DNA of 64,000 nt, taken from positions 372,001 through 436,000 of the forward strand of contig JAGTXK010000055.1 in assembly GCA_019096195.1 (NCBI GenBank), in the 5' to 3' direction. The notes under the pieces are model-generated. The model was not told the origin of the DNA, ran no database searches, and was given only the letters and a program-made list of their open reading frames with translations. Positions 8,021 to 54,950 of this stretch are shown here, in pieces (the stretch's first letter is position 1; each line of letters starts with the position of its first letter). This DNA is from Boletus sp. NGJ (Eukaryota > Basidiomycota > Agaricomycetes > Boletales > Boletaceae). The position numbers and the translations under genes are program-made.

Positions 8021-11000
8021 ATATCGTTGCGAGGTATCCCCGAGTTCCGTCGCCACATCTACCAAACCTTTGAGCTATCCTCTCTTGGCAATTCACCAAT
8101 GTATCATGCTCAACGTGTACCGTTCTTTGCTTCCCATTCGCTTTCCTTTATTCATCGTGTACATCTTCATTTTCGAATTTCTGGAAACCTAAAATGGGGT
8201 GTTGAATCCCAGTCCCGGTGGTTTGGTTGAACGTAAATGTACTGCCTTTTTTTTTCAATTCCTTTGAGCGGACCACAGCAGGAGACTCAATGCAAGTATT
8301 CATTCATTCAGGTTCCTTTCTAGATGAATCATTTGAATTCTCCATCAGAAAAGATCCAAGGCAATGTTTGCAGTGTGACATCTTGGCATCGGCACTTTTT
8401 TTCCGTTGAACCTTTAGCTTTCGGGAATTGGACACAGCAATCGCACTGTATCGATATCGACGACATCATTTTCTGGGCTGTCCTCGAATCACTACTCCGC
8501 CTCGCATTGAATCATGGCAGACCGGTGAAAGTTGGCTTCGTGCAGCCCGCAGCCTCCAAGACAACATGTTTAGAAGATTCAGACTCTGAAATTTGGCCAC
8601 GCTGCGATGCTCGTCTCGATGGGTTATTGCATCAGTATTTACCCGAGGGCCAATGACGTTTGTCGATGTATTCACTCCATCTGGACGCTCGGCGAGAACG
8701 ACAGCGGAGAATCAGTACAGCCTTGCTTGGTTGCCAAGATGCCTCCGGTCGGGCAAATGCGGCGGGCTGCGGCGGGCATGAACAGCCGTTGCACATTTCT
8801 GGACAAATACAATGGTACAACCACGTCCGAGGTTCCAGATAAAAAGCGTGCATCACAGAGTGTAGCTTTTGCTTCATCACATACACTCGGACTTCCCTTC
8901 TCCCCACACACACACACCGTTCAAAATATGAATACGCTCTCCGACGTTCGTCCGACCGTTCTGACTGGTCGATCCTGCGGGTACGTATCGAATCAACTAC
9001 GACCAGCTCTTTCGTACCAACGGATTCTGTCATGCAGGATCGCCAGTGATACACACTATCAAGCCACAAGGCATGCCAACAGGAACTACCCCAGAGTTCG
9101 AACGGGGCAAAACTTACCGAGGTCAGCTTCCTTGACCATAACAACTCCTTGGCTGCCGTGTTCATCACATCCAAATCTAGATCTTCCCCTGTGACGGTGG
9201 TCTCTTGGTCGCAATACGGGGCAGTTTGACATGATTCGTGGCATTGGCTTTCAAGTAACGTCGAGCGCACTGAAACCCTCTCTGTCTCGTGACTGACGTT
9301 GCATGTCTATTCCCAGGTTACTTCAACCAGGCTATAACTGCCGCTCGCCATGAACCATATACAACTGCGCATCCAAGCTTTTTGATAGCCGGGCTCTATG
9401 ACTATCGCACGCATAGTGTGTCCTTGGGTGGCTCTTGGTACAAATTTACCATGGGCAACCGTATTCGACAAAAAGGAGTCACCAGACGCAGATGGGAAGA
9501 ACTGTGGTGTTGTATCCAACGTAGCAGGTCTACTATAACCTTGAGTAGTCGGTTACCTGCGCGCATGTATACGTTGTATTGGTAGACACGCTTCTCCGGT
9601 ATGTCGGTGAAACACGCAGACTACTGTATATCGAAAATATCCTTTGGCTGCTTAACGTCGGATGACTGTTTTTTATAGAGGGATCGCGAGGGTATCACCA
9701 CACATTAGTGCCGAGGGATGTTGAATTCATCGTTCATGATTCACAGGGGTCGCGAATCTGGTCGCGAAGACGAAACTTGCGCGGAGTATGATGCACTGGG
9801 AAAACGGGCAAAGGCAGATTGGCAGCTTTGGTGTAGCTGCGTCTCGACGTGCGATCGATTAGCATAACCATTACGACTAGTATAGTTGTTCCCTGGATCT
9901 ATTTGCAGAGTTATAGAGTCTCTAAAGACATCCCAATCTAACTTGCAACGACACCCATCCCGCTTGCATTCCGAAACGGATATCGATGGGAGGCGGGGCC
10001 CTTTCCGGTGAATTCGGGTTCCCGTGTTTCCCATATATAAAGTGCGACATGGCCATCAATTTCTCGACGTTCCACCGACAGTTTTATCGCGTCCTCGGAC
10101 TTGGCTGTAATACCTCCGCCTTTGGCGTTCTCCTCGGACTCGACTCTGCCACTTCTCGAGAGTTGTGCTGTACCATCTCGGTCATGAACGGCATTTCAGT
10201 GTCTTTTCACTTGAAGCGACGCGACGTCACCTCGACATGGCTACCCTGGAACTGTGGTTGGTCATTTCCCCGCTTGTGCTCACGTTGGTTCGACTTGGCA
10301 CTTGTCGCAGGAGTAACAAACGCCGTCCACCCACGACCGACTCGGAGACTCGGCCACTGGCATATTGGTGGCTCGAAAACCCTCCACACCGCAAATCAAA
10401 AGGCGACTTTCAAACTTGGATTGGCTCCATTTAAATAGGTCGTAGGTACACGGAAGTTTTGGTCACTTGGGTTTACCACCTGATTCTGAGTCAGCCGCGT
10501 GGTTAACGTGTCCACTGGCATTCGCGACATTCGTATACGCCAAGTCCCGCAGTTCTTCCTACTAGCCAAGTGGCTTTGGAGGGCACGGCGCGCTTGTACA
10601 GCAAAATCTGGCCTGCACGCCAACCGTTTGGCACGGCCCTCCGTATGACGTAAGTAACTTGAGTATTCGCGACGGTTAGATTGCAGAGAAAGACCAAGGA
10701 GCAATACTCTCGCGTCAAAAATATTGGCTAGAACAGGGCGGCGAGGAGCATTAACCCAGCACTGCAACATGTCCACTGCCGCTAAATAGGAAGAGGAGAA
10801 ACTGACCACTCCCCAGAAAGTTCCCCGCAGATCTTTAATAACCATACCTGATCATGGGTGCTCTTGCAGAAGACTTGCAGACTCTGTATCCAATTGCATC
10901 TTCTTCGTGTGGTGCCGCGACTGGCATTCGTCTCGACAAGTCTCCCGATCGTCCCAAGATAAATCGTCGCAGTCACATTTGCGATAAACATCGACGGGGG

Positions 11001-34159: not shown

Positions 34160-34288
34160 CGTGTGCTCTGTCGAGTCTGTGAATTACAGTATGGGGTCGC
34201 CCGGTTGAGGTCTGAATCAATTAGAGGCTGTTCGTAGGATAATCGCGTCGCGCAAACACACCAAAATAACGCGTGGCCTCACTCCATC
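34160..34288. promoter_or_regulatory. short bidirectional promoter
   Basis: Only 129 bases separate the start codons of the WD40 (-) and CSM3 (+) genes, so both transcripts must start from this interval. No TATA box was seen, as is common for shared housekeeping promoters. Confidence 0.55.
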
Positions 34289-35706
34289 ATGTCTCTCAAT
34301 GACATCTGGGACGAGCCCATCGCGTCTCCACCAAAACCCGCGCCAACCGATGATGATTTCAGCCCTCTAAAACGTCCCCACCAATCCCTTTTTTTCTCCG
34401 ACAGCGACAGCGACTACGAACGGCCCCCAAAGCGTGCAACCCCGGCTCCGCCTCCAGCTAAGCCAGACGTCGATGCCTTGTTTGAGGACCTCGACAAGGA
34501 CGGGGAATACGATGACTTGAGATATAAGCCGCTTGCACCGGCGTTGGACCTTGAGAAACTTGCCAAAGAAGCAGAGGCGAGACATGCACGTGCACGACAA
34601 ACGGCCCCTTCGCAGACCTTAGCAGGCGGTTCGAAAACAGCAGCTTCTGGTGGCGCCGGTAATGATCAGTCTGGAAAAGACGAAGGGAAGGGCAAGCCTG
34701 GTGATGGAGAGAAAAAGGGTCGAAAAGTTCTGCCAAAGTTGGATGAAGAAAGGCTGGTAGGACCTGAGGGCTTTCCATCACTCGTCAAGGACATCGAGGG
34801 ATTTATACCAAAGGGTAAAGGAAACGAGGTGCACCCCCACTCTCCTTGTACGTTGTATGCTTACGCTGACCAACGACTCCTTCAGCATGCGGATCTCATT
34901 CGGTTATTGCAGGTATACCAGTTCTGGACCCACAAGATGTATCCAAAGACTTCGTTCAAAGATACAGTCAACCGTGTTGAGAAATTATGTCACTCCAAAC
35001 GCATGCAGGTAGATGTCCGAGTACCTTGACTAGTGATTATTCTCTGAGTCGCATGCACCACAAGGTTCGCCTGAGCGTATGGCGGGATGAATTCAAAGGT
35101 GTCATAAACGACGCGAAGTCGGCCGACGGTCCGGATGTCATCGATCTTACCGAACCCACGCTTGTCGGGACTGAAGACGACGGAGACGACAAAGATTCAG
35201 AGAATGCCCAGTTAAAGAGCGACCGAGCGTCCTCGGGCGCTCCCTCGCTCCCCCCTGCGTCCTCGGAGGCAGATGACGATGACTTTGACATTGACGCAGT
35301 GATCAGGGCTGAGGAAGAACGGCTTGTTGCACTCCGCGCGGCGAAGGCTGACTCTGGGTCACCGCACACGTCAATTTCACCGACACTTTTGGGTGAAGCT
35401 TCGTCCAGAAACGGTCCCGATGCAAGTGTGATGGACGTCGACGAAGCAAGTCTTTGGGATGCCTTTGATGAACCACAAACACTGTTGGATCCACATCAGA
35501 GTGCCCCCTCGACATCTATACCCGTAGGTGACGACGAGGATATGTGGAATATTGTCGACGAGATGGAACAAGGGGAACAGAGTAAACTGGCCAAAACACA
35601 GATACCATTATCGGGGGTCAATGTTACACCTTCGTTGGACAGTACTAATAGCGGGAACACCTCACGTGCAACCAATGACGATGACTGGGACGAGATGTAC
35701 TCATAG
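34289..35706 (+). CDS. CSM3: replication fork protection complex subunit Csm3/Swi3 (TIPIN)
   Basis: Partner of Tof1/Swi1 (Timeless) that stabilises stalled replication forks and supports checkpoint signalling. The ATG at 34289 starts MSLNDIWDEPIASPPKP. After a disordered, Pro/Asp-rich N-terminus comes the Swi3 domain (Pfam-type), starting RKVLPKLDEERLVGPEGFP and continuing SLVKDIEGFIPKGKGNE|HADLIRLLQVYQFWTHKMYP|KTSFKDTVNRVEKLCHSKRMQ|VRLSVWRDEFKGV. Two introns inside this region (after KGNE and after KRMQ) are in phase 0. The C-terminal half is long, acidic and Ser-rich, with DDDDFDIDAVIRAEEERL and DEDMWNIVDEM, ending DDWDEMYS. Length and domain order fit fungal homologs. Confidence 0.92.
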
Positions 35707-35811: not shown

Positions 35812-37143
35812 ATGGAACTGATTCACTCTTCGAAGACCCCCGCCTCGCGTTGGGACACAGTCGCTCTTCCGCCGGAAACAGAGTGCACAGACCCTCTAGA
35901 TGTCAGGCACTCTGTCAGAAGGAGACCTGGAGTGAGTGCATGTCTCCTTTGTTGGTCTATACTGACCTTGATGATAGAGTTATCTGCTAGGAGATCGTTG
36001 CTATCATCTATATCCCACCTCAGAGGTTGATGGCCTCCTAGTGTCTATGGGATGGGCAAATACTGCAGTTGAGCAATCATCAAAGTATCTAACGTACCTC
36101 GAAAAGTTGTCTGTACGAGTTTCCATGCCGCACTTCAACCTGGTCAGTGAATTATCTTTCCGCTGATAATAATCGCATTGCGACTCGCAACCTCGAGGCG
36201 ACAAGTTGCATACCACTCTCCAAAAAGGCATGGTATCGCTTCCGAACGATCCCCAAACACCAGTTATTGTGTCGGTCCTGGTACAAGCATTGCTCCAGTG
36301 CGAGCTAGAAGACAGTGTCCATGCAGGACCCTCAGGTCAGTCCGTTTGATACACCCTGCGGCACGTAATTTCCGACATTTGTCCAGCTCCGCAAGTTTAC
36401 TGGGTTGTTGCTTTGAAGGATCATCACTACAGCGCAGAATTGGAAACCTAACGCAACCGCAGACAAATCAGGTATCGTGTTGCGCTCTCGCGCGATGGTC
36501 TTGAGGCACGAAGAGAGCGTACGTTCAGGATCTTCTGCGGCAGGGTGTGGGAGCTTCTGGGAGTCGGTAGCGAGGCACGTTGCCAGTAATTTCCGGGTGA
36601 GGAGCGACATGAAGTCAACAGCAAGGTTGACGAAAGAGGTTAAATGTCAATGTAGGTCTTCAAACAAGAAGCCTGCTGGAGTACGCGAGGCGTTAAAGAG
36701 AGCAGTGGAACATACGCAGCAGACTCTGTTTCTGCGATGCTGGAGCGGGAGAGAGAGAATTATCGGCACTTACCAGTGGTAGTTATCTCGTTACCTGCCA
36801 AAATCTCCCACGCGTTGTCATCCAATAGCTATCGCGTACGACACCGTGAGTTGGCTCCGCGGACGATTCCATCGCATGAAACATTTCGTCGCATTTATCT
36901 GATCACTCTCGACGGCTTTGGAGACGTGTACGAGTTCAACGGTGAAAACTTCCAAGTCCAAGCACGCTTTTCCACTTCTCCGAGCGGTCAGTACACCTTA
37001 GAAATAATCAACACGGCCGGTACAAACAAGCACCCTAACAGATAATTGGCCATGGCGGGGTTTCTCGCTGTTGGACGCTTGCTGCAAGGCTTGTTTTACG
37101 ATTCCGCCTTTACCGCTGTTGGCGACCGTTCTACCAATGCCCT
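35812..37143 (+). CDS. hypothetical multi-exon gene, structure unresolved
   Basis: Not recognised. Exon-like segments on the plus strand read as ordinary protein: MELIHSSKTPASRWDTVALP (ATG 35812), then after an intron SYLLGDRCYHLYPTSEVDG, MGWANTAVEQSSKYLTYLEK, LHTTLQKGMVSLPNDPQTP, PQVYWVVALKDHHYSAELE, RYRVALSRDGLEARRERTF and, further on, HETFRRIYLITLDGFGDVYE and a final exon SDNWPWRGFSLLDACCKAC ending at TGA 37141-37143. Early junctions (about 35939, 36141, 36334) work. Around 36425-36480 a branch-site-like CCTAACGC and an acceptor exist, but no donor in the right phase was found, and a second break lies near 36588. The gene may be decayed, may use a non-standard intron, or I may have mis-joined it. 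It lies between CSM3 and the giant gene, same strand as both. Confidence 0.4.
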
Positions 37144-37459
37144 GAACCGCACCCGAGTTAGGCTGTAGAGAGGCGATTTGTTTGATCATTTTGATCCCGG
37201 CTCTTTCAGGGTTTCATTGTGGGTGCAGCCCTGTGCCGAGGGCTGCGGACATTGAAAGGCCCAACAGCTATCTGCAGCAGCAAGTTCGTGCCTCGAGTTA
37301 CGCCCAAGCTGTTCGGCTTGGACCGTTGTTTAGGGAAAATTATCCGCCAGAGATCAACAGATATAAGGGCAGAACCTGGTACATTCGTTTTGCTCCTTCC
37401 CCTCTGCCTCGATACCACATCTAATACCAAACAGATTCTCATTATCGCGCATCTCTCAA

Positions 37460-40400
37460 ATGCCTTACTCCGTCCTTGACCATGGGGACATTCGTACATT
37501 GGAATATCTCGTTACGCATGTGTTTCTTCCTCTCAAGCTTCCCGATGGGGACGACCACAGTGCCCGCAACGATCGCTCTCTAGCTGGCGCAATCGCCTCT
37601 GTTGCGCATATTTACAGTGGCCACGTCGACACAGCCAACCTACCTGAGTGGCATCGTATTTCAGGAATGTTGGACAACCTGCAGGCCACTGTTCAGTTTG
37701 AAAGTCTGGACCAGCTCCGGACTGTTTCTCAGCTCAGCACCATGCATGTTGCAGGTAAGCTTTCGAACCCCCACAATATCATAGAAACTCATAACGTATA
37801 GATGTCCTTGCATATCTTATTCGAGCACAAAATGTGGCGGTCGTTTTCAGGAAGCAGAAAGAGGTCACTGTCTTCGAGTCGTTCGAGGTATCCCCGAAGG
37901 CTGAAAATGTGATGACTACACACGGAAAGCTCATCTGCTCATATCCCGGTCCAGCCATCGAGGTCCCCAATGTCGTGTTCGAAGACGAAAGCTTTCTCTC
38001 CGAACTAGTAAATTTCCTCGTTCACATGAATGACGATGTCCTTGATGCCACTCCAACAACTCGAAAAGCGCAGTCCACTGTAGTTGAAACCCGAGACACC
38101 ACCCATCCGCGTTATGTCACCGAGTTGCTTACTGGCATCTTGAGAAGTGTCGGTGGCCCTGCCGACATCGTTCGCATTAGCAAACGTGTGGGTGATGACG
38201 TTGTGTGGAACAACTCGAAGTTGCCATGGCGGCGCTCGTCACTCTGGGTCGTCATCAGAGTTACCCTTCAGACCTCACTGGATCGGTCTAATCTCGGACA
38301 TCGTACCTACAAGGAATTCATACTATTCTTCATGTGTTGCCTTGCACAGGAGAAAATCTCTACGGGTCTCCCCAATGACGCACTCCACTCCATGTCAGCC
38401 AAAATCAGCCGACGCTTAGGCAAGCTGGGTTCTTCCGCACCAGACTGGCTCTCCCGTACTGCATTGCAAACATGCAGTTCCCTCCGATCGACCCTTGAGA
38501 AGAGGTGGGGACAGGTACAGGCTGCTCAGCGTATATCTCCAGTCTGGACCCCCTCTCAGCTCGATCTAACCCGAGACATTCAGCTATCGCTCTTGGGTAG
38601 TGGCGACTACCTTCGCAATGCTCTCGCTAATCACTGCATCGAACCTCCCGACGCCACTTTTAACCCTGAACTTCGTCCTCGAGGTACTCTTGATGATTTT
38701 CTGTCCTCTGACGGGGCCTTTTTCGAGGAGGCATATCGTACCGAGCCTCATGTTGCCCTCTATGATGTCGAGCGGGCGGTTGAACAGAGTATTGACACCT
38801 GGGTCGATCGGGTCAGAAACAACGACGAAGCTTGCGTGAAGCTGGAGATCTTGGCAAATAAATACTCCTCAAGTGCGCTGATAACGTACGCGAACAATCC
38901 AGAACTTCTGTCAGTTATGCTGTTGACCATGATCGAGCTCTGGGTTGCACTCGACAAAATAGCCATCATGGAAATTCCCATGCTCGCAGAGTACTCTCCG
39001 GAGGTCCCCACAAGTCTTCTGGAGGATTTGTTATTTTGCAAGACTAAGAGCCTCCATCGCCTTCGTCACGCACATGAATACCTCTCTCATCGCCACTCCC
39101 AGTCACAAAGTCAATGGTCGGTGTTTTCTCAGACAGTCGCCACAGACAGTTTTGCCGTCCGTTTCTACGCAAGTTCTTCGCATCTTCAGTGCCTCAAGAC
39201 TCGAATCGAGGAGGCAGCGCAGCGCGAAGTTCGTGACAAGGTTACTGAACTCGAGAAAGCAAATGCTCGTCATGCCGAGTTTCAGCAAACAGCCGCTAAG
39301 ATTAATCACCAATACATCGGCAATCGGAATGGCACCGAAAGCCATGCTGGTTACTGTAACAAGTGCTTCTACGAACAATCGTCTAAGAACATGGATATCG
39401 CCCTTCACGAGTGGCCGTTGCCAGCTGAGCAATTCCGCGCCGAGGCTGTCGTGTTCGAATTAGATTGTCCAATCTCTTTCAACATGTGGCGCAATGCCAC
39501 ATTCCATCTCTTGGTGGATCTTTGTTCTCCAGCCATTGAGCCAAAAAAACCTTATATCCAACTCAGCAAGTATGTCGCGCTCCAACCTTACCTTGTTCAG
39601 CATCCGAGATCGCGGATCTCCCTTGCTTCCGACACGAAACCATTCGTTGTCTCTCATTATAGCAGAACGCGCATTCCCACCACGCAGGAAGAGGTCTGCG
39701 TCAACAATGGACTGAATGTCTATGGCTTTGATAGCCATTCTTATATTCCTGTCTCGGAGGCATTGGGTCGTCTCGACATCGGCAGGTATTGCACGTACCA
39801 GCTTCAAAGCGAATCGTACCAGAATTTGCAGAAGTATGTTGATGCCACCTCCCACACGTCGAACGAAATCGTGGCAAACCAAGCCGACTGCCACCAGGAC
39901 CTTTCCATCGATGAATTTATGGCGTTCGGACATCTGCGCAGTGGCGGCCTGCTTCAATGGTTCAACATCTTGCGAGAGCTTCGAGGTCGATCATTGAGCT
40001 TCCATCATCATGAAGTGCATTTGCTATTGGCTCAGGCAGTCTCACAAGTTGGACCGTTTGCAAATGCGGAGTGGACATGGCATCAGGAGATCCAACAGCC
40101 CTCCTTTTGCTATGCGCTTCTAGGAGAGCTTGAGAGCCTCCTCCAGGACGTCGAAGCAAATTGGCTGGAAGCCATAACAATGGATACCATCTCCTTTTTG
40201 CTTCGACGTCTTCTTGCGTCCAGCCCTGATCAAGCTGTTTCACAGAAAGCACTTGGACTCCTCCGTACTACACGTGGCAAGGTATTCTCCTGGGTACAGG
40301 AGTTGTCGGCTAAGCTCGCGAAAACACCGGGAGATGAAGAGTTGCGTGGGATTTTGCGGGACATTGCCGCCGTTTGTCGAACCACGTTCGATGTTGACCC

Positions 40401-43400
40401 TGCCATCATCCAGGAGCTCCTTCATTCAGCGGAGGACATCGATGTTTTACTTTCTTCCGCTATATTAATCCACGACAACCTACCCAGTAAGGTCTCTTGC
40501 CTCCCCTCATATTCGCAGATGATCTTTGACCGAGATCGTCGCCTCTCCCTGGCTCTCGAGAGTGTCGTACGCGATGTCATTCTGGCCGACTCTAGTAATC
40601 TAGGCATCAACCTTGCGGTTGGCAGGGTTTGGTCCCACTATCGCCCAGGTTCGAAGTGGACCCAATTACAGAGTCCGAATTCACGCTGGTTATCGTGTAC
40701 GACTGCACCGACAGTTGACCAGTGTTCGCAAATGGTGCATTTCAATATACTTGATGGGTCACTTTTGGTCAACGGAAAATCGCTTGGGCGATTGCCGAAT
40801 GAAATTCAGCGGCATCCGCTGTACAACCTAATATTTGGCGAGGTACGTCTCTTCATGCCCATTGTCATGCAGGTTACAGATTGCTTGTGCAGCAGGAGCT
40901 TGAGGTCTTACCAAGTGATCTCCCAGGGATGGATTACTCGACACGGGGCAAGATCTCCGGTCACCAGGTGAGCGCACTTTCGGAGGGGTAGGATAGAACC
41001 TTGAGAACTTAGCTTGCATGCCCAGGTGTACTTTTCTCTCAGAAGCAACAGCTCCGATCTCGTGATACGAGCATATGCTAATTCAGACACCATGGAACTC
41101 ATTCCTCAAGAAAAGTTGAAGGGAGACTTGCCGGATGTATTGATTGAGGGACATGCTCATTGGTTAAACCTTTCTACATCCATCATAGAGATCCGCCCCC
41201 TCGACAGCCTTTGGAAGGGTTCGTCGGAGAACTGGAAGATGGATTGTATTCCTGGACAATATCGCGTGCGCAATGGCCGTGAGCTCCTCATAGACATCCG
41301 AAGCCGATCTTGGGCCATGGTATCGGATCTCTTGAAGCCACTCGACGCCCCACAGAATCTCCTCGTCACCGTGTCCCCGAACGACTCCGACCAACCTTCT
41401 TCACCATTGCAACTAGCCGTTGTTTTACCCCGCTATCGCCTGTCATTTTATGTCGATGAAGATGAGGACCTCCAATCTCACAACATCCGGGGCATGGTTT
41501 ATGACAAGGATCAGTCTATTGGCACTCTGTTTGGTTTGGTCAATCAGCTTGTGCTTCGGCCAAAGCTCAGAGAAATTAACGACGCCGACGAACTTGTCCC
41601 GCGGTGTGTCCTCGTCCCCGAGGGAGCGATTTCGTTCCAGAAGGATGGACATCACGTTCGCATCGAGATCGATACGCGTGGTCCCGCCTTTCAGCGGGTC
41701 ACGTACCAAACCTATAGAGTCGATACCGACCTGGGCTGCTTGACAGGAAATGGCAGCTTGACGAACAAGCTGTACTGTGCTTACCTGCACGCTCTTACCA
41801 GCGGGTGTAGCACCGATTCGCTTACAGGCAGGTCGGGCACGGAGGAAGCGTTGTCTATACTCCGTTCAGCCAGCTGCTGGTCGATCATGAGGTTCAGTTC
41901 TCGCGATGAGGAGCTCTTGAGTCTGATCGCATCCATGTGTCCCTCGCGCACGTGGTATCCTAAATACCTCAGATGTATGCAGAAGGTGGAGTGGCTTGAT
42001 CTTCCGGTGAATTCTCAGCATCACGAGTTGTACGTCGTTTCCAAAGGGATCAAGGAACACTATGAAAGAGTCCGGTCGTTTCACAAGAGCCCATCACCGA
42101 ACACTTCGTTTCCATCGCATGACGATCACCTGCTAGAGCGCAGCGCGCTACGAACTGCGTATTTATCCCCATCCGAGTTTTCTGGGCAACCTTCTGGGGC
42201 AGATTTCGATGTCCGGTACCCCGCCAGAGACCTAGTGGAGGTTAATTCGGGAGAGCATCGTGCTTATACCGCGGCGACCGTCGTTCACCGCCGGACCGCC
42301 AATTCAACTCCAAAGAATATACTGAGCATGATGGAATCATGGACAGGGACTGCGTCTATAGATGCTACTTTGTCTCTCCAATATGACAGGTCGTGGTTGG
42401 CTCCAGATTTTCCATCGACTTGGCTCAAGGCATACAACCTCTTGCGAAGCAGCGATGCAAGGCAATGGTTTCAATTACTTTTCTCGCTGCCCGCGATGGC
42501 ATATGGCTCATCGGAGGATTTGGAGCTCACCGACCTGGTCCCCGCATTCGTAGCTTTTGCGGCGAATTCGCAGTTTCGTTTGGAGGATCCACCGCACTAT
42601 GATTCTTACAATCTCTCAGAAGGACTTTATCCCTCCTCGTACACCCTGCGCAATTATATCTCTGACTGTGCCCGCTCTTTTGAACGTAGCCCTGAAAGCA
42701 CAAAACCTGCGAGAACTGGCGAAAGTTCCCAGAACCTGCGAAAACGTCGATTCGAAATGTATAACAAGAGACTAAACTCGGACACCGATGCAACCATCCA
42801 ACAGTTGTTGAGCGCTTGGCCATGCGAGACTCCCCCACCGTGCTCGCTCAACGCTAGGTTGTATGATGTGGCGAATTTGACATCCAAGGTCCAGAGCCTC
42901 TTCTCCAGTTGTTATCGCAATCTCAAACTTAAAGAGCACCTCACTCGTGTTCAAAGGATCCTGGACAACGTACACTCCCAGGGTTTCCCAACCCCCACTC
43001 TTCAATACTCCTTCGATCCATCACAAAACATCCCATCTTGTGGCATCCCGTGGTCATTTACGGTGGACCGGTTATTCGCCAGACCTGCTCCATCTTTACA
43101 AGTGCATGATAGATTGCCCCGATACACTCCCGATGCTGGGAATACCTCGCTCTCTGGTTCCGCCCCGTTGCACCAACTGGTTACTGCAGCTGAGGCGAAC
43201 GCAGAAAATCCATTCCAGCGACGATACGCCTTGGCCCTCCGCGCCAGTGCAGAATGCTTTGAAAGCGAGATATCTCTTGTAGCTCACGGAGTAATGGAGT
43301 TGCCTACCCCCGAGACACTTTTGGCACACTATGATCGGTGCAGAGCCAACTACATTAAGGCTATTCGCTATCTTAGGCAGCATCTGGGCCCGAGGAGCCA

Positions 43401-46400
43401 GAGTGAACAAGCTCTTGAGCAGTCGGGCCAATGGCCGCGCGTCACTCCAGATGCACTTTTTCGGTCCCTTGCGTCTAATTCACCTATCGTACTCTCCGAC
43501 GAGTGGAAGAGATGTCTCACGAGGTTGTCTCTACTCGCGCTCGAACTACAACGTGCGCGAAGATTGCTTCGACTACACCTCGACAATCTTCAGGAAGAGC
43601 TCCGCAGGGAGCTGCAGAACGAAGGATGCGACGGTTGGAACGCTGAAGCACATCCAGACTGGCTACTTATTCAGGTGTGTTTCCCGTGTCATGGATGTAT
43701 ATACCAGCTGACGCGACACCCTTCGCCCACGTCAGCTCCAAGGCAACTTTTTGGTTCGTCGCGTTCAAGCTGACGTTGCCAACGAGATGATCACCCCATG
43801 CTCGGGTAATAATACGGTCATGCAACTTAGTATTGGCGAGGGGAAGTCGTCCGTGATCGTCCCTATCGTTGTTGTTGCTCTTGCCGATGGTGATCAGCTC
43901 GTCCGCATCATTGTCCCGAAAGCGTTGACGGCGCAGATGTTCCACCTTCTTGCGGATCGCCTCGGCGGACTTGTTAATAGGCGAATATACTTCATCCCAT
44001 TCTCTCGTTCCCTCGAGGTCGATTGTCAGGAAGTGGCTGCGCTTCATGACCTCATGTCGGAATGCATGAAGGAGCGCGGGATTCTTGTCGTCCAACCGGA
44101 GCACGTTTTGTCGCTCAGGCTGGTGAGCGTGGAGAACCAGCTGCTCCAGGCAGAAGACAGTCAACTGGCAAACCTGTTACTGCAGCTTCAGAAGTGGCTC
44201 CATTCTCATTCACGAGATATTCTGGACGAGAGCGACGAGGTCCTTCACGTTCGGTATCAGCTGGTATACACCATTGGCGATCAACAACATATGGAAGGTT
44301 TCCCTGAACGATGGACCACCACGGAACAAGTTCTCAGTCTCGTAAGCAAACATGCGTCTTCCCTTCAAGAGCTTTTCCCGCTTGGTGTAGAGTACGAGCG
44401 CGGTCCGCCCGGATCATTCCCCCGCCTTCGCATCTTGCATGCAGACGCTGGTCAAGAGTTAATCTCACGGATAGCGCAAGATGTTATGGATGGTCCGCTT
44501 CCGAACTTCAGCTTTGGACAGCTCTGCTCGGCCCTCAAGGAGGCGATTCGAAGCTTTATATCTTGTGCCAATGTCCCTCCCGAAAGTGTCCAATTGGTAA
44601 AGGAGTACTGTCAGCAGACCCCTCTGTGGGGTGGTCTTCTACTGCTGCGCGGCCTCTTGGCCACCGATATTCTCTTGTTTGCTTTCAGGGAGCGACGGTG
44701 GCGGGTAGATTATGGCCTTCATCCAACGCGCAGCATGCTTGCAGTCCCTTACAGAGCAAAAGACATCCCAGCACAAAGGGCTGAGTTTGGACATCCGGAT
44801 GTTTCCATCATCCTCACCTGCCTGTCGTATTACTACGGTGGCCTCAGCGAAAAACAGCTGAGGATTTCTTTTGAAATTTTGTTGAAACAGGACGACCCAT
44901 CTGTGGATTACGATCTCTGGGTTCAAGAGTGCGGTTCTGCTATGCCAGAAAATCTGCGGACCCTAAGTGGCATCAACATCAAGTCATCTGAGCAGTGGGA
45001 CGAGTTTCTGGTTTCTCTGTTCTCGCGGAATCGGGCAACAGTTGATTTCTACCTTTCAAGTGTCGTGTTTCCGAAAGAAGCAAAAGAATTTCCTTCAAAA
45101 TTGTCCTGTTCAGGATGGGACTTGGCAGAGAAGAAGGACCGTCTACTGACTGGTGAGTCGAAAATTAGGTTACTAGATCGCCGAGCTAGCTTGCTCAACC
45201 TTTTTCTAGGATTTTCGGGAACAAATGATGGTCAATATCTAATACCCCTTACACGTCACTCAACGCGATCCCGATCATCAGCGAGGGACCAATGCGAAGG
45301 TTCTGTCATATCTACTCCAGCCGGAGAACAAGCACTATATGTGCATAACCAAAGAGAAGGGCGAGCGACGGACCACACATGAATTCCTCGAGATCTTGGT
45401 TGCCCAGCAGCCCGAGATCCGCGTCCTGTTGGATGTCGGTGCTCAAATGCTCGATCTTCATAACGATGAGCTGGCTAAAGCATGGTTAAACATCAACCCA
45501 GATGCTTCTGCTGCCATCTATTTCAACGAGGATGACGAGTTGACAGTGCGCACACGAGACGGAAGTACACAGCTTCTGATTTCGTCACCATTCGCGCAGC
45601 AGTTGGATCAATGCGTCGTATACCTCGACGATGCTCACACACGTGGTACCGACATCAAGTTTCCAGGCGGATTCCGCGCCGCCGTCACGCTGGGCCCCAA
45701 AGTGACCAAAGATCGTTTGGTTCAAGGTATGTAGAGGTACGCCATTTCGTTCCACTAATTTAACTGTTTGGCGCGCGTAGGTTGCATGCGGATGCGGATG
45801 CTCGGTTACGGTCATTCTATCATGTTCTTCGCACCTCTCGAAGTTGATCGGCGTATCCGCTCTGTGGCTGGCAAAGACAGAGATGCTTTGCACGTCATCG
45901 ACACCATGGATATCCTACAGTGGGCTATACATGAGACATGCGACGATATTCAGCAGCGAGCGCCTCATTGGGCACAACAAGGGATGGATCATACATCCCG
46001 ATATGCTGCTTGGACCAGCTTCTGCGGGAACGAGCTGTCCTCGAAAGCGCTTTCGGAAAAGTGGCTCCAGCCGGAAGCCAAGAGGTTGGAAGTTCTCTAT
46101 GGGCCCCACAACACTTTGAACTCTGCGGCCTTGTTGACCGCTTCAAACATTCGCCAACATTGTACCGAACTCGGGATTTTCTCACTCCGCGATGTGAGCA
46201 TGGATGAAGAACAAGAACGAGAGGTCACTCATGAAGCTGAACGCGAACGACAAGTGGAGCGACCCCCGAGGGTGCTACCGCCCAGCCATTCACTCCATCC
46301 AGACGTTATTGCCTTTGTAATGACAGGCGTCATTCTTCCAAACACCACAGCTTTCCGTCCAGCTTTTGAGACACTTAATGCTACTTCTGCAGCTACCAAC

Positions 46401-47036
46401 GAGGCGCATGTTTGGAGTCCATTCGTGTTGACGACAACGGACTTTCAGGAGACCGTCAGCTCGTCCGGAAACTTGGACGGGTACCTGCGCCCCGTTCAGT
46501 GGGTTGTTTCTGGAAAAAGAGATCACAACGAAGTGCTCGTCATTCTGAGCCCTTGGGAAGTCAACCTCTTGCTACCGCGTATCAAGTCGAGCAACAATGT
46601 TCACCTCCATCTGTACACACCCCGCATCACCAAGTCCATGAAACCATGCGACGACCTTACTTTATACAGCATCCTCGCCGTTCCCACCACCGAGTGGACA
46701 CCTCCTCGGCTTCTTATGGATCAGTTGAACGTGTTTGCTGGGCAGTTGTACTTGAAGGACTACGAGACGTACATCCGGTTGTGTCGTTTCCTTTGCGTGT
46801 ATGCAAGGGATCTACAAGGCAAAGAGGGCATCACGGTTGGGCCCGACGGGTTCATCTCGCCGAGGAATCGGCCAAGGCACTTGCAGACCACCATGGACAC
46901 GTTCCAACGTACGCCGATGGCTTCGGTGAGGACGTTGATGGGCCTTCGCAGGAAAGGCATGCGCTTTGCATTGACGCACATGGGGAAGGTTCTTGATGGA
47001 CGGGTACTGTCTGAAGACGATTTCAATGTTTTGTAA
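37460..47036 (+). CDS. giant DUF6606/DUF3638/DUF3645 protein with SecA-like ATPase motifs
   Basis: Very large fungal/plant-type protein of unknown function; database names such as 'ubiquitinyl hydrolase-like' for this family lack support from motifs seen here. Seven exons: 37460-37754, 37802-40842, 40896-40967, 41026-43674, 43736-45152, 45210-45726, 45781-47036; about 3081 residues. The N-terminus (LEYLVTHVFLPLKLPDGDD…) fits DUF6606. The DUF3638/3645 part holds QADVANEMITP, a P-loop IGEGKSS (~2053), LDESDEVL (~2183), GFSGTND (~2493), DDAHTRGTDIKFP (~2631) and QGCMRMRMLG (~2663). These resemble, in order, SecA motifs GEGKT, DEVD, MTGT, GRGTDI and the arginine motif. The total length is a multiple of three only if one base at 45249-45253 is surplus: upstream frame reads …QYLIPL, downstream TQRDPDHQRGTNAKVL. 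No membrane segment is obvious. Confidence 0.88.
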
Positions 47037-47988: not shown

Positions 47989-48008
47989 TGGGTGACAGGG
48001 GAGGTCCG

Positions 48009-50179
48009 TCAAGCATACGGCTTTCGGCCAAAAGCTTGATAGAGTAATCGCACAGGCTTTTTGAGACCTTCGAAGTAGCTCGTAAATTCGTTCACCGGGG
48101 TCTGGCTCCAGGTTTCGCTAGCCTTGACACACCCGAGGGTCTGGAGGCTCCTGCTTGTAGTAGTACTTCCGTCCGGTAGTACCCACGCATGCAAGCACGC
48201 GCTCTCTACGGTACGGGGTTGACGATCTGGATCGCTGGGGTGTCGATAGAGAACACAAATCCAAGCGAGGACGTAGATGATGGATTCGAGATCATGTCTA
48301 GGTTCGTGGACAGTAGCCCCGCCTGCTTTGCATATCCCACACCAGGGTATCAAACGCCATGAAGGGGATCAGACCCTTGATAGGCGATGAGTAGGGTGAA
48401 CGACTGAGTATTGCCATACGTACCGTTCGTTCACCTTGCGATGTGCCTGCACTCGATCCATCGATAGATCTGGCACAGTCGAGATTGATGAGGAGACCAC
48501 GGCGAAATCCACGTTTCCAGTATGATATTTTCTCTTTCGGAGAGACGCTCCAGCTTCTCCGTATCCTTCTCCCGAATTGGCCGGGGACCACCAGCAGACA
48601 TCAAGATATTGTTGATGCTGATATCCCGATGGAGAATACCGCAATCAAGGAGTATCTTGTGGACTGATCGTCACTGGATATCAGGACGGTCGATTCTTGC
48701 AACACAGCGATAATCGCACTCACTCTCGATGATGTCGATCAGGACACTGACAAGTTCTTGTATACACGAGAATTCTGCTAGAGGGGAGCCGACGGGTGCG
48801 AGGAGTAGTCGGCGATGAACCCGAATCTCGGGTAGGGGATCATCATCTGAAAATAGGCAACTTGGTCGGGGTAGACTTGTCGAATCATCTTCCTCCCCTA
48901 TACGGACTGTCCGTGCAGCCTCAAGAGTAGTTACTGCGTAATTAAATTTTCTCTCTTTTGTCCTCTCCAACATTTCCTCTTCAGTTGTCGCCCGCCCGGT
49001 GTAGGTCCAGGAGTCCTTGACAACGTATCGCTTGCCGACGTTGCGATCAGTGTCGTCGACAAGAAAACATACGGTAGCTCTTCCGCGGATCATCTCGGTG
49101 TTGAATAGTACAGGTGTGCTATTGTTCGTTTTCTCGGCTGCTTGGATTGTCAAACGAGAGCGCCGACAATTTGTATTCATCCGAGAGATGGTAGGGGAGA
49201 AGCAGTGTTCAAGGCGCCCGAGGGTCAAAGTGTCGAGTGCACGGACAGCCAGATTGGAATGGGAATGGAGGTGGATATCGTACCCGCGCGGGTGAGCTAC
49301 ACCAGCGCGGTAAAGAGATGAAGGCGGGGGGGTTGATTGGCAAGTGTCAATATGATGACGAAACGACGATCAAGTTGTGCGGAAGCACCACAGGCTTTTC
49401 TCGTGATCTGAAGACACAAGCAAGAGGAAAAATGTTCAGAGGTGAGCTCGAGGACAGACACGACGTTTTGCCATGAATACTGATCAGGTTTCAACACCAG
49501 GTCCGTCCCTGAGATGGGTTTCATTGAAAATTCCGCAGACCAACGGCATTGTGCGCGTGTGGACTGTAACCACGTTCTTACCAGTGGGCCCTCCAGCAGC
49601 GAGTGAGAGGAACTTGAAGAGCCTTGATCTAGGGATCGAAGGGAAGCGATGATGGCATTGAGCCAATTTGCCACCGTCTTCTCCTCCGAACCAGGCTTTG
49701 GCAGGTAGGTACGCTCTGTGTGCGATCCCTCGATCGTCCTTGCGATAGTAAAGTCCTGCTTCTTCTCCTCCCCCTTTGCCGTAGGTGGCAAAGATTGCTT
49801 CCTCCTTTCCTGCCCCACGGCTTGCTTCAAGTTCCTAGTTCGTACCATGCTAGGCGAACTTGGTATCAAACCACTAGCCCGAAGAATTTGAGGCATCACC
49901 ATAGGCTGCCAACGCTTCGAACCATTGTCGTAAAGCTGGATGTCGCCTTGTTTCAAACGTGAGGAACTCTGGAACGATATCATGGTTTTTAGGCTGGGAC
50001 TCGTCTTTTTCCCTGATAGTGACACCTTCCAACTCGTTGGCAAGGTCTTCATTAAGAGCCACCACAAGGTAAACCGTCGCAGAAGTAGAGACAGACGCCG
50101 TTTTCATGCAAAACGGTGTCATCGTCACGGATGTGATTGCGCTGCGATGAGGAGGAGTGGATTCAGAGGGATTTGGCAT
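48009..50179 (-). pseudogene. FunK1-type fungal protein kinase, copy A (decayed)
   Basis: Fungal-specific kinase family FunK1, expanded in Agaricomycetes. Reading the minus strand from 50179: MPNPSESTPPHRS…, an N-terminal region with YDNGSKRWQPMV, then FSMKPISGTDLVLKPD and VVSVLELTSEHFSS…QITRKAC…RRFVIILTLANQ, the RYVVKDSWTYTG strand (lysine of the kinase N-lobe), the catalytic loop ILHRDISINNILMSAGGPRP near 48610-48650, then GLIPFMAFDTLVWD and the C-lobe RHDLESIIYVLAWICVLY, ending GRKPYA at 48009. The pieces lie in several frames: at least one frame change separates NHDIVPEFL from the YDNGSKRW segment, and a gap is present after LVLKPD relative to copy C. It is therefore probably not functional, although some frame changes could be introns. 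Bases 48516-49290 are almost identical to copy B. Confidence 0.75.
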
Positions 50180-50848
50180 GGTGACCGTGCTGAGACTCGA
50201 CAGTAAAACTGACTAGTAACATGCGCCGCGCACAATGCATAAAAAGGTAGGGCGAGTACCGTTCTAAGTAGAGCGGCAAAGGGGCACGAGGCTGACCTAG
50301 AATTCAGTCCGTGCATGAATACTTACGCGAAGAGGGTGTCCCAACATGACTCAAATGATTCAGAAGACGCGGCGAGCACAGCCACAAGTGGCAACCGCAC
50401 GGCAACCTTTGCTGGACTCGAGTCACATCAAGTTGTACGCCATGACTCAATCTCGCCATGATCTCGGACCCCCCACTTTAACACCGAGAAAGAACCGCAA
50501 GCACGCGTGCAGCACCGAGCGATTCAACGACGCATGCACCACCTTATCCACGACGAGCGAGTTCGGCCAGGGAGAGAGGAATCAATTCGGCGCTATAGGG
50601 AAGAAGGAAATGTGGAGCACGGAGCCTGCAAGAGAGATGACGGACGCTGCTTGATCCACTCTGAGACGAGGGAAAGGGTGAAAGAGCGTGTTACAGACCC
50701 TCCACTGTTTACTCCTTCATTGCATTGTTGGAGATGAGCACGAGATCGATGGGGATGACTGAGGCGCACGCACCGACACGTTCCTCATTCTCGACGGCCA
50801 TCTCTACGAGAACGCCTTTGGTCGACGCGATGCTCGGGCCTTTGAAAA
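50180..50848. other. intergenic between FunK1 copy A and the second kinase
   Basis: No supported coding region or repeat was seen. Confidence 0.4.
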
Positions 50849-52086
50849 TCATACATCCTGATAAGTAGACCTAATTATCCTTGCTCGATTGATGTATTCT
50901 AGCATGAACAAGTCATAATTAGCCAAAATCTCCTTCCCGAATCGTGCACCTGCTGGCCTCTTTGTTCCTTTATGATCCACAAGATCTGGGTACCGCGCCT
51001 CCCCCTGCTTTCCTGCCTAGTCAAAGTGCATAATCGTGAACCGCTTCTTGTCTGATTTCGACACCATGATATTCACGTCGCGGAGGTCACCATGGACATA
51101 GCCAGCAGCATGAAACTCCTTGAGTTTCGCCAACATGTCACCAAAGACAAATCCAGGGAGAGACGAGATGCGGTAACACAGTGTTTCGAACTCATCCGAG
51201 AGCTTGTCCATGACCACCATCATCCATCCGCCAGGAAGCTTTTCGAACCCTCGTAAGGCCGGAGCACATCCCAACGATGCAAAGTAATCATGAGCTTCGC
51301 GTGAATACGTTCGAACGAATTTAATGCAGATAGGGCCGATATGCCCGTCACGTTCGATTCCGAAAAAGACGAGCTTGTCCTTGTGTTGCTGCCTCTTGTA
51401 GTGGAATCTGATTTCCTCGTCCTGGAATTTATACTTTGTTGGGTATGGGAACAGGTGCGGAGGGGCTGGTTTGATAGCGCGATAATCGGTTTTCAACTGA
51501 TTCAACTGCTGATCATCGTAATACTCCTCGAGCGTTTCGGTAGCTTTACGAAAGGCGGCCAGGTATCGCTGGAGTGGAAATAAAGCGCAAGCGGACTTGA
51601 CAGGGCTTGCACAGACGGCCGCAAATTCCAGGTCGCACCAGCAAACCAGATGTTGGGTCCTGCAGGAAGAGATAATTAACTTGCTAAAGAATGACAAGCG
51701 GTGAATGGACTAACCCGCAATGGCGAGGAGGAAGCATGGTAAGGCAAACCATGGACAATTGAGTGCTGCGTCCCTTGTGGACTCCAAATAGTATAGTATA
51801 GACTCGAAGTACGGCTCGTCTAACGTGCTACCAACTTCGTTCTTAAATTTGGCGATCACGTAGCGATGTCCGTTGGTGGACATATTTGCGCCACCACAAA
51901 TTTGCCGTTGACTTTGGAATCAGTAAACTGGATCCCGTATCGCTTAAATGTCTCTTCAACCGCTTGAAAACGCGCCGCTTCGTTGTCATACAAGCCGGAC
52001 ATCGTGTTCGTGAGGTCGATTGCAAAAGTGTAGTCGTCAGGAGTGATTTCGATAGTCTTACAGTTGTCGACAAACTCGCCAAAGAC
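50849..52086 (-). pseudogene. second kinase family, C-terminal part with a nonsense codon
   Basis: A kinase-like gene of a different family from FunK1, with catalytic loop YVHGDLRDVNIMVS (about 51065-51105). Upstream pieces on the minus strand: GVFGEFVDNCKTIEITPDD, LTNTMSGLYDNEAARFQAVE, then in other frames YVIAKFKNEVGSTLDEPYFE, CFLLAIAG, a normal intron (about 51660-51714), GPNIWFAGATWNLRPSV, LEEYYDDQQLNQLK and FPYPTKYKFQDEEIRF. After the catalytic loop the DFD-like segment reads MHFD followed by TAG (51017-51019), where the family normally has Trp (FDWAGK). Past the stop the same frame continues with AGKQGEARYPDLVDHKGTKR and NYDLFMLEYI to a final TGA at 50849. The nonsense codon and frame changes indicate decay. 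It abuts the FunK1 block at 52087 with no gap. Confidence 0.7.
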
Positions 52087-52861
52087 TCCAGTATGATATT
52101 TTCTCTTTCGGAGAGACGCTCCAGCTTCTCCGTATCCTTCTCCCGAATTGGCCGGGGACCACCAGCAGACATCAAGATATTGTTGATGCTGATATCCCGA
52201 TGGAGAATACCGCAATCAAGGAGTATCTTGTGGACTGATCGTCACTTGATATCAGGACGGTCGATTCTTGCAACACAGCGATAATCGCACTCACTCTCGA
52301 TGATGTCGATCAGGACACTGACAAGTTCTTGTATACACGAGAATTCTGCTAGAGGGGAGCCGACGGGTGCGAGGAGTAGTCGGCGATGAACCCGAATCTC
52401 GGGTAGGGGATCATCATCTGAAAATAGGCAACTTGGTCGGGGTAGACTTGTCGAATCATCTTCCTCCCCTATACGGACTGTCCGTGCAGCCTCAAGAGTA
52501 GTTACTGCGTAATTAAATTTTCTCTCTTTTGTCCTCTCCAACATTTCCTCTTCAGTTGTCGCCCGCCCGGTGTAGGTCCAGGAGTCCTTGACAACGTATC
52601 GCTTGCCGACGTTGCGATCAGTGTCGTCGACAAGAAAACATACGGTAGCTCTTCCGCGGATCATCTCGGTGTTGAATAGTACAGGTGTGCTATTGTTCGT
52701 TTTCTCGGTTGCTTGGATTGTCAAACGAGAGCGCCGACAATTTGTATTCATCCGAGAGATGGTAGGGGAGAAGCAGTGTTCAAGGCGCCCGAGGGTCAAA
52801 GTGTCGAGTGCACGAACAACCAGATTGGAATGGGAATGGAGGTGGATATCGTACCCGCGCG
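52087..52861. repeat. 775-bp near-identical block, copy of 48516-49290
   Basis: The block matches 48516-49290 at a constant offset of 3571 with no insertions or deletions. I count four differences by eye (near 52246, 52709, 52815 and 52818), about 99.5% identity. Sequence on the left is unrelated between the copies; on the right similarity continues a little with a 17-bp length difference. Confidence 0.9.
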
Positions 52862-52890
52862 AGTGAAAGAGATGAAGGCGGGGGAGTTGA
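52087..52890 (-). pseudogene. FunK1 kinase, copy B, middle fragment
   Basis: Contains the N-lobe strand RYVVKDSWTYTG and the catalytic loop ILHRDISINNILM of FunK1. It breaks off at 52087 where the second kinase family begins, and at its 5' side at the 1.5-kb insertion (52891-54384). The C-lobe is missing, so it cannot be an active kinase. Confidence 0.8.
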
Positions 52891-53101
52891 TTGACCCGGA
52901 GGGGACAGGTTTGCGATCCAAGAATGCGTGGGAAGTGCCAAAAGTCGACGCCCGTGGGAAGTCTTGGCTTGACTTAACGGGAACCTAACCTTAACCTCAG
53001 TGTTGGGGCTCGTGTCGCCCAGGGCAGAGGGCTGGCGGTCATCACAATACTCCATCATCTGAACACTCCATTATCTACAACAACAGTACTACGATTTTAT
53101 C

Positions 53102-53797
53102 ATGTCGAGCTTGGTCGTAAACGAATCGGACGTGCAGGTCGTTTTGGCCGTTTCAGAGGACGTTGAGTGTGATGTGGACGTAGCGAACGGCGTTGTCAGT
53201 TCGCGCAGACTTGGCGATGCGTTCGACTTTGTGGGTGTTCGTCACATGCCGCTCCCGACAGTGCGTTTGTGGCCAGCGGGTCCTTGTGTACTCGTTCAGT
53301 TTCAGTCGCTGACGCAACTGGTTCATTCCTTTCCGTACCTCACTGTCGCTGCATTGGAGAGTGTCGCTTCGATTCATCATGTTCCTTTTAGTCGACGCTG
53401 GCCTAAGAATCGGCTCATGGAAGAACTGCGCCGTCATGAATGTAATGCACCTTGCGAGTCTGATCTCGTGTTCGTCTTCGAGCAACATCGCAAAAGTAGA
53501 AGGGTCAGTCGACGCAGGCACGCGAACGAGAATGATGCACGCATTGTGCATGAATTTGTGCAGTCCCAAGAATGCACGATGTGGTCGCGCGATGGGATTC
53601 ATTATGTCTCGTCACATCTTCTTAAAACACAATATCGGATAGCGCCTGATGATGATGGGCTGTCGTCTCTTCTCGTAGACGTACCGTTACCTTTCATACT
53701 GTCGATGTATACGCTGACATCCCAGGACACCGATTTTTTAATGAGTGCTCATTCGGTTGCATGCGCGAGTACAGTAGACTTTCTCATAACGTATTGA
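53102..53797 (+). CDS. open frame inside the insertion, unknown function
   Basis: A 231-codon frame from ATG 53102 with acidic N-terminus and a middle block (TVAALESVASIHHVPFSRRW, PKNRLMEELRRHECNAPC) that looks like an ordered helical, Cys-containing domain. The pattern of helix, basic loop and C-x-C-like end vaguely recalls N-terminal parts of some fungal transposon proteins, but I cannot name a family. The present end is not the original: the last codons (VDFLITY) come from the left inverted repeat of the MITE at 53772. Open, protein-like sequence is still visible to the right of the MITE. Confidence 0.45.
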   Translation: MSSLVVNESDVQVVLAVSEDVECDVDVANGVVSSRRLGDAFDFVGVRHMPLPTVRLWPAGPCVLVQFQSLTQLVHSFPYLTVAALESVASIHHVPFSRRWPKNRLMEELRRHECNAPCESDLVFVFEQHRKSRRVSRRRHANENDARIVHEFVQSQECTMWSRDGIHYVSSHLLKTQYRIAPDDDGLSSLLVDVPLPFILSMYTLTSQDTDFLMSAHSVACASTVDFLITY

Positions 53798-53906
53798 AAA
53801 ATTCTCATAATGTATACTAGTGTTTGGTAGTTGTTTTTTCCCGGAGTGTAGGAAATGCTAATATACATTATGAGAATTTTTCGATACATTATGAGAAAGT
53901 CTACTG
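53772..53906. mobile_element. 135-bp MITE with 45-bp inverted repeats, Tc1/mariner-like ends
   Basis: Left arm 53772-53816 starts CAGTAGACTTTCTCATAA; right arm 53862-53906 is its reverse complement with 2 mismatches in 45. TA dinucleotides flank both ends (53770-53771 and 53907-53908), the target duplication of Tc1/mariner elements, whose ends also often start CAGT. Each arm contains a short internal duplication (CTCATAAYGTAT twice). The 45-base centre has no coding potential, so it is a non-autonomous foldback-like MITE needing a transposase from elsewhere. Confidence 0.88.
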
Positions 53907-54384
53907 TACTGCTACTCACCAGGATAGGATTCAACTACTCCGAGTACATCATTGCCCTACAGTCAACCGTTGGCCGGACGAACCACCTCACTTACTACTT
54001 TTGCCAATATGCACTGCTATGGAATATCACCTTGTTGGTACGAACATTATCACGAATGATGCAGAAAATGTCCCTTCTTTATTCGACCTGTTGGGTTAGT
54101 CTCCAACACGATTTATGTTCATTGTTTTCTCACGTAGTACAGCAATCACTAACATACATCGCATATATTTCACCTCCATTGACACCGCGCGGAGAGCTCT
54201 CTCCATCCTATCACACTCGGCTGTCATCTTCGAGCTAAATGGTATGAACTGACATTTGTTCTCTCATCCTTACAACATTCCTCAACACAGTAAATACGAC
54301 GTAAAATTTATGCTATTCCCCCTTGTACTTCGTTGTTGAATTACTCTCCATCCTTGGGGCCAGGGGTGCCCGGAGGGCAATGCT

Positions 54385-54950
54385 ATTGACAATATGATGA
54401 CGAAACGACAATCAGGTTGTGCGAAAACACCATAGGCTTTTCTCGTGATCTGAAGACACAAGCGAGAAGAAAAATCTTCAGAGGTGAGCTCGACGACAGA
54501 CACAACATTTCACCATAAAAACTGATCGGAGATGTTATCTGGATCCGGATTGAGGAGAACAATGTCAGGTTTCAACACCAGGTCGGTCCCTGAAATGGGT
54601 TTCATTGAAAATTCTGCAGACCAACAGCCTGCGGACTGTAACCGCGTTCTTATCAGTGGGCCCTCCAACAGCGAGTGAGAGGAAAGTGAAGAGCCTTGAT
54701 CTAGGGATCGAAGGGGAGCGATGATGTCTGGAACGATATCATGGTTTTTAGGCTGAAACTCGTCCTTGTCCCTGATAGTGGCACCTTCCATCTCGCTGGC
54801 AAGTTCTTCATTAAGAGCCACCGCAAAGTAAACCGTCGCAGGTAGGGACGGACGTCGTCTTCACGCGAAACGGTGTCATTGCCACGGATGTGCCAGGAGT
54901 GAATTCAGATCAGTGATTTGGTGTGATGACCGTGCTGAAATGACAGTAAA
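54385..54950 (-). pseudogene. FunK1 kinase, N-terminal fragment (copy C)
   Basis: Reads on the minus strand ALNEELASEMEGATIRDKDE, QPKNHDIVPD, then PLRSLDQGSS, FSMKPISGTDLVLKPDIVLL, VVELTSEDFSS and QITRKAYGVFAQPD. It matches copy A (about 49350-50100) at roughly 85-90% by eye. It lacks about 300 bp that copy A has after NHDIVP, but keeps the KPDIVLLNPDPDN segment missing in copy A. With fragment B it probably formed one gene before the 1.5-kb insertion. Confidence 0.75.

Follow-up and report, generated by a model that had tools for sequence, protein, structure and literature searches.

The 64,000-nucleotide stretch of the Boletus sp. NGJ genome analysed here (the window, part of contig C22 in an assembly of 32.8 Mb and 141 contigs) carries a giant gene of the DUF3638/DUF3645 family, which raises the question of what kind of enzyme such a protein is: many members of the family are labelled 'ubiquitinyl hydrolase 1' in UniRef, and the initial annotation of this locus read in it an ordered set of SecA-like motor motifs. 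In the passages found by literature search, the mechanism of DUF3638-type proteins is described as undefined (PMC12615304), a domain of the family appears in a figure legend on a large microsporidian gene family (PMC5423893), DUF3638, DUF3645 or DUF6606 are mentioned (PMC6237848; PMC6627653), and a SecA-like domain other than the DUF3638 family (PMC8195603) or other domains (PMC7125106) are treated; the passages of PMC12615304 and PMC5423893 give no function for the DUF3638/DUF3645/DUF6606 family, searching by six Pfam or InterPro accessions returned no match, and further searches listed no paper on what the family does. Peptides of DUF3638 proteins are reported for Tetrahymena thermophila (PMC12615304).

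The gene occupies positions 37460 to 47033 of the + strand, with a stop codon directly after exon 5 at 47034, and its five exons encode a protein of about 3,100 amino acids (Table 1), the GT-AG introns having been picked by hand among frame-preserving candidates. In Pfam, exon 4 matches DUF3638 (E 1.3e-83) and DUF3645 (E 1.7e-18), a weak DEAD match (E 0.037) overlapping DUF3638; the C-terminal pieces of the gene gave nothing of note in Pfam, and an NCBIfam scan of three exons gave no match. The closest database match, at 97.5% identity across the read-through, is the 3,101-aa protein J3R82DRAFT_6091 of Butyriboletus roseoflavus (P0001). All five motifs are encoded in the order claimed by the initial annotation, which had placed DDAHTRGTDIKFP exactly; IGEGKSS and LDESDEVL begin one codon earlier than it stated, GFSGTND was one base off, and VQGCMRMRMLG is encoded, over a slightly different span, only once the last intron is removed. 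The introns and a break of frame after GFSGTND had escaped it.

Table 1. Features of the DUF3638/DUF3645 gene in the window; the motif names (I, II, III, V, VI; Walker A/B) are those that we take to apply.
Feature	Position in window	Strand	Basis or remark
Exon 1, DUF6606 start	37460..37754	+	Pfam DUF6606 E 9e-10; GT-AG junction; P0001 residue 1 aligns at 37460
Exon 2, remaining DUF6606 and N-terminal part	37802..40967	+	DUF6606 E 8e-72
Exon 3, middle region	41043..43674	+	0 Pfam families
Exon 4, first frame: RecA1 and large insert, ends at frame break after GFSGTND	43736..45230	+	DUF3638, DUF3645
Exon 4, other frame: first part of RecA2	45243..45726	+	P0001 aligns 45246-47033
Exon 5: RecA2 end, long helix, acidic linker, C-terminal alpha/beta region	45781..47033	+	helix from P0032 model
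Introns	37755-37801, 40968-41042, 43675-43735, 45727-45780	+	GT-AG
Motif I (Walker A) IGEGKSS	43832..43852	+	M, G, G, K invariant in 68/68 relatives
Motif II (Walker B) LDESDEVL	44222..44245	+	D, E, D invariant in 68/68
Motif III GFSGTND	45209..45229	+	S in 66/66, G and T in 67/67 non-gap rows
Motif V DDAHTRGTDIKFP	45627..45665	+	H, R, G invariant in 68/68
Motif VI VQG/CMRMRMLG	45720..45806	+	Q...R.R invariant in 68/68; intron 45727-45780 splits glycine codon

Motifs 1-3 share one reading frame and motifs 4-5 another, the switch falling directly after GFSGTND (window 45230-45260). From the nucleotide sequence we take this switch to be a one-base frame break rather than an intron, because a single base at this point sets it apart from the paralogous loci L001, L002 and L005; the mirror copy L003 has the same broken form. 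P0001, another B. roseoflavus record, is unbroken at this site, and thus the window copy is either broken or bears a sequencing error. The genome has further DUF3638 loci, namely the mirror copy on C22 and, with a DNA identity of about 86%, three on contig C41.

Regarding the surroundings of the gene, C22 behaves as a near-perfect inverted repeat in which position x mirrors 486533-x; where this was examined (window 4000-9000, 36500-45868 and 48000-54353), identity was 99-100%. The contig is a large palindrome or else was folded back in assembly, so that copy counts on C22 may be doubled. The mirrored block spans window 1-54353 (C22:372001-426353), and within a high-copy repeat the mirror is lost at about C22:426350. 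A transposon-like repeat of about 1.5 kb (window 52893-54387) lies at the edge of the block and recurs at about 20 other places in the genome with 91-100% identity, six of them full length. Fragments of a choline transporter-like protein, a Swi3 replication-fork protein and a fungal protein kinase were found at window 28342-29408, 34238-35026 and 48674-49369, and a scan of ten flanking frames revealed no evident partner of the motor.

Conservation of the motifs was followed in 239 proteins, the matches listed by three homologue searches (hit lists of 2,665, 28 and 2,166); 2,665 and 2,166 are overlapping 90%-identity clusters in two of the searches, pointing to thousands of database members. 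All five motifs occur in order in 230 of the 239 listed homologues, far beyond chance, with median gaps of 129/313/141/29 residues, as returned by a script that takes the nearest pattern and chose a wrong DExx or xTxGxN in some rows. The nine proteins without the full ordered set are P0013, P0033, P0038, P0079, P0082, P0084, P0085, P0147 and P0148, the alignment of P0147 being gapped at the last two motifs. For the alignments, proteins with less than 75% coverage were left out (224 of 238 retained as candidates), and 68 rows were picked for diversity and 34 for the fold; P0147 and P0148 were left out of tree and row selection, and P0138 also of the second selection. Among the 68 diverse rows 23 columns are invariant, 13 of them motif residues, and among 15 very divergent rows (16-31% identity to the first, bacterial-type members included) 21 are invariant, 14 of them in motifs. 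The most divergent members show varied forms (GxGK, DEVD or DEAH, HTTGMD, HTLGTD) and keep the pattern. The five motifs are the conserved core of the family; an origin by chance or artefact is rejected in view of the invariant columns and the ordered occurrence. The residue preceding GEGK is isoleucine in the window protein and P0001 and methionine in all 68 aligned relatives, the IGEGKS form being found once among 230 homologues.

The initial annotation proposed a check of conservation across fungi, oomycetes and plants; it extends to fungi, plants, animals, ciliates, a diplomonad and a heterolobosean, while no oomycete is named among the matches listed. The named listed members include Basidiomycota, Ascomycota, chytrids, Willaertia, a moss, a lycophyte, Stentor and Hexamita, and among animals Hydra, a sponge, springtails, gall midges, fungus gnats and bdelloid rotifers.

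We consider it highly probable that the protein is a giant ATP-driven motor of the helicase superfamily 2 (SF2) type and not a ubiquitin hydrolase. An AlphaFold2 model was obtained for a 1,092-aa relative (P0032), not for the window's own protein, from the alignment of 34 rows (pLDDT 81.7), whereas a prediction from 11 Boletales rows alone was poor (pLDDT 46) and was set aside. Two RecA-like domains, set beforehand as the test of the fold, are present in the model of this relative in an SF2-type layout with the motifs at strand ends, which bears out the proposed two-RecA ATPase motor at the level of a predicted structure. A 41-residue helix (residues 689-729) follows RecA2. Between the motor and the C-terminal region of P0032 lies an acidic stretch (790-798) of low model confidence, in which E790, E792, E794 and E798 are nearly invariant in the family alignment A4.

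For comparison, control sets were drawn from whole genomes: SecA (30, later 39), UvrB (24), DEAD-box (10), RecG (18 of 24 loci) and DinG (29 of 30 loci), the remaining RecG and DinG loci giving no usable frame. The profile-profile check suggested by the initial annotation was run with hhalign on 67 of the 68 A4 rows (one left out for length), and it placed RecA1 with SF2 through the DEAD-box family and gave no significant match to SecA. With P-values that hold per single comparison, RecA1 of seven divergent members matched the DEAD-box profile at 90.9% (P 1.2e-6) and that of the eukaryotic set at 39.9% (P 3e-4), with 39-40% across larger sets; the values for the other families were 3-14% (SecA), 8-11% (RecG), 9-19% (DinG) and about 1% (UvrB). 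For RecA2 nothing significant was found against the five SF2 families, the maximum being 3.0% (SecA) and DinG reaching at most 1.1%. Reversed-profile controls stayed at or below 1.0%, and pairs of control families scored 31-98% on RecA1 and 53-98% on RecA2; SecA against DinG reaches only 0.6% on RecA2, and a low hhalign score is therefore no bar to kinship. Motif VI of the family, Q...R.R, has the usual arginine pair respaced. The family thus belongs to SF2, with motif VI in a respaced form and with profile homology of RecA1 to the DEAD-box family. Several points weigh against the SF2 motor nonetheless: the RecA1 profile of the larger eukaryotic set stops at 40% where most control SF2 pairs reach 53-98%, RecA2 lacks a significant profile match, the arginines of motif VI are respaced, the fold is predicted from a relative and superposes loosely in Foldseek (best match TM to query 0.28, rmsd 16), and the frame of the window copy is broken, with isoleucine for the invariant methionine before GEGK.

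Such a motor would bind ATP between RecA1 (GEGKS, DESD) and RecA2 (HTRGTD and the arginines of Q...R.R) and presumably hydrolyse it, each cycle closing and then opening the cleft between the two domains. This motion may shift the insert of about 300 residues between motifs II and III against the long helix after RecA2, by which a polymer gripped in the groove would be stepped or remodelled, and the large N-terminal part probably selects the partner or substrate. We lean slightly towards nucleic acid as the gripped polymer, a polypeptide being possible and less likely.

The chances are about even that the protein is a nucleic-acid-stimulated SF2 remodeller or sensor, perhaps employed in conflict with viruses or mobile elements, whose likeness to SecA reflects a shared general layout. 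The match of RecA1 to the DEAD-box profile in the seven divergent members argues for this, as do a stretch resembling motif Ib, mostly of the form xPExxLS, which a narrow pattern detects between the first two motifs in 156 of 233 members, at a place where SecA has its own signature, and the presence of MDA5, DinG, RapA, UvrB and XPD among the top rows of a Foldseek search of the PDB with the model (MDA5 sixth, XPD/DinG at ranks 20 and 25), although SecA is still the best fold.

Regarding a role in conflict, the distribution of the family is informative. The description as a eukaryotic family proved too narrow, since members occur in bacterial metagenome-assembled genomes (MAGs) and giant viruses. 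Six bacterial loci were detected by searching genome contigs with the divergent alignment (four Legionellales, one other gammaproteobacterial and one verrucomicrobial MAG), and DUF3638 was over the cut-off in all four searched genomes that carry bacterial loci; the same kind of search with the Boletales alignment gave no relatives. Nine giant-virus proteins in the BFVD viral structures match the model (E 1e-30 to 7e-14), from Hyperionvirus, Fadolivirus, Harvfovirus, Hokovirus (HKV1, four different accessions) and Yasminevirus, and seven of them are labelled DUF3638 or ubiquitinyl hydrolase 1. Scans of IMG/VR viral contigs with the exon and with alignments A3 and A5 confirmed no relatives, and phages and plasmids gave matches only at E 8-10. 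A FastTree phylogeny built on 237 motor regions puts the named sequences of Diptera, of springtails and of Hydra into one clade each, unnamed sequences aside (support 1.0, 1.0 and 0.73), so that expansion within lineages is indicated; the bdelloids group together with little support (0.175), and the smallest clade containing the Basidiomycota takes in 13 of the 19 named Ascomycota. These lineage-specific multi-copy clades, together with the members in giant viruses and bacteria, are compatible with a conflict role, but PADLOC gave no defence-family match for the three proteins submitted, and the neighbours of the one bacterial copy examined are housekeeping genes. Judged from sequences, distribution and tree would fit both horizontal spread and a role in biological conflict, and prove neither. 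A different giant ORF of 3,464 aa with TGEGKS, LLIDEVD and TGT was seen in a gammaproteobacterial MAG (L108 37-10428); it matches the SecA_DEAD profile (E 7.4e-10) and possibly represents another giant SecA-like family.

A true offshoot of SecA, that is, a polypeptide-threading translocase or unfoldase whose insert would be a clamp of the PPXD type and whose helix would be the SecA scaffold helix, appears doubtful. In SecA, the PPXD is placed between motifs II and III and a long scaffold helix follows RecA2, and in the family the large insert and, in the P0032 model, the 41-residue helix lie at these places, although DinG too has an insert there; the GEGK and RGTD forms point the same way. SecA chains also took ranks 1-5 in Foldseek and ranks 1-19 in VIA-align, with 384-524 residues aligned against 314-354 for the listed non-SecA chains; VIA-align covers only chains ranked by Foldseek, and families missing there are not thereby excluded. 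The margin was modest, the top SecA Z being about 2 above DbpA and FANCM and the lowest of the 19 SecA rows tied with them (16.7 vs 16.6), and MDA5 followed directly in Foldseek; on the predicted model, SecA is the closest solved fold by this modest margin. Searches of the PDB by sequence were silent, the exon giving no match and the profile one noise match only.

Sequence comparison was less favourable to SecA. The SecA signatures YGTNxExGFDYLRDN (0 of 233 members by a laxer pattern vs 33 of 39 SecA controls by the strict one), DEVDSxLIDEARTPL (0 of 239 vs 30 of 39) and, in motif VI, RGRxGR (0 of 239 vs 37 of 39) are absent, and SecA_DEAD is absent among the 25 of 32 families listed for the 15 divergent members. 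SecA was the best RecA2 profile match, though a non-significant one, of the eukaryotic set (2.7-3.0%), with 2.4-2.6% for the combined set, in whose alignment GFSGT falls on GMTGT and RGTD on RGTD, and 0.4%, not the highest value, for the divergent one; overall hhalign against SecA was non-significant (0.4-14% for half-domains, 0.2-0.4% for the whole motor) with a narrow SecA set (Neff 2.0-2.9). RecA1 is nearer to the DEAD-box family, whereas the SecA profile scores 96.4% with RecG and 73.9% with DEAD. Median motif gaps were 104/169/119/66 in the SecA controls, 104/30/120/25 in DEAD (9 of 10), 98/28.5/127/26 in RecG (10 of 18) and 299/54/115/30 in UvrB (22 of 24), and the II-III gap in DinG was 148-210 (25 measured). 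The family therefore has a II-III insert like that of SecA, but also like that of DinG in the same place, and its V-VI gap, 29 against 66 in SecA, is like those of the DEAD, RecG and UvrB sets. Thus the SecA-like motor of the initial annotation stands as regards the best-matching fold and not as regards kinship in sequence: the family is an SF2-type ATPase with SecA-like architecture that sequence comparison does not identify as a SecA, and it may work in a SecA-like way.

That the protein is a deubiquitinase with an accessory motor, in line with the UniRef label, a protist member (P0140) with a UBA domain over the cut-off and RanBP-type zinc fingers below it, and a conserved N-terminal CxxC (50 of 51 at each cysteine), is scarcely credible, since Pfam revealed no ubiquitin peptidase in the window exons, three full-length members and 25 of the 32 families listed for the 15 divergent members, in agreement with the initial annotation, and the conserved cysteines would resemble a metal knuckle more than the Cys-His pair of a catalytic site. 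P0140 combines the DUF3638 motor with Thioredoxin_8, UBA_7 and the sub-threshold zinc fingers, and therefore a link to ubiquitin is possible in some members. In precomputed Pfam, the long fungal protein P0122 has an aspartic-protease domain, perhaps from a merged gene model, and other long members have what we take to be kinase, BTB, ankyrin, aspartic-protease and NACHT-type domains, some perhaps likewise from merged models.

The probable SF2 motor belongs to a large family, multi-copy in several fungi and invertebrates, whose database label is not borne out by domain scans. An SF2-type core with a SecA-like layout provides an activity that can be assayed, residues whose mutation should abolish catalysis and a cause to revisit the automatic annotation; should the family act on protein, eukaryotes would have one more kind of SecA-like motor. 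The boldest form of this idea, a SecA-type translocase or unfoldase outside plastids in fungi, plants, animals and protists, hidden in a giant mislabelled protein and moved between eukaryotes, bacteria and giant viruses, we hold to be unlikely.

Compared with known systems, the family differs from DEAD-box proteins in its motifs ([ST]AT, ARGxD and HRxGRxGR in the latter), and from both DEAD and RecG controls in that these have no large II-III insert (gap about 30). XPD/DinG share an insert between motifs II and III, but the DinG sequences displayed have DEAH, SAT, EGxD and a motif VI of the form Q..GR..R, and XPD/DinG rank below SecA in fold. Regarding motif VI, Q...R.R of the family stands beside Q..GR..R in the UvrB and DinG sequences and RGRxGR in SecA and RecG. 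SecA differs in that its motor is not set inside a protein of about 3,100 amino acids, its II-III gap is about half as long (169 vs 313) and its V-VI gap is longer; like the family, it has GEGK[ST], DE.D, [ST]GT and RGTD in the same order, with a large insert between motifs II and III and a long helix after RecA2.
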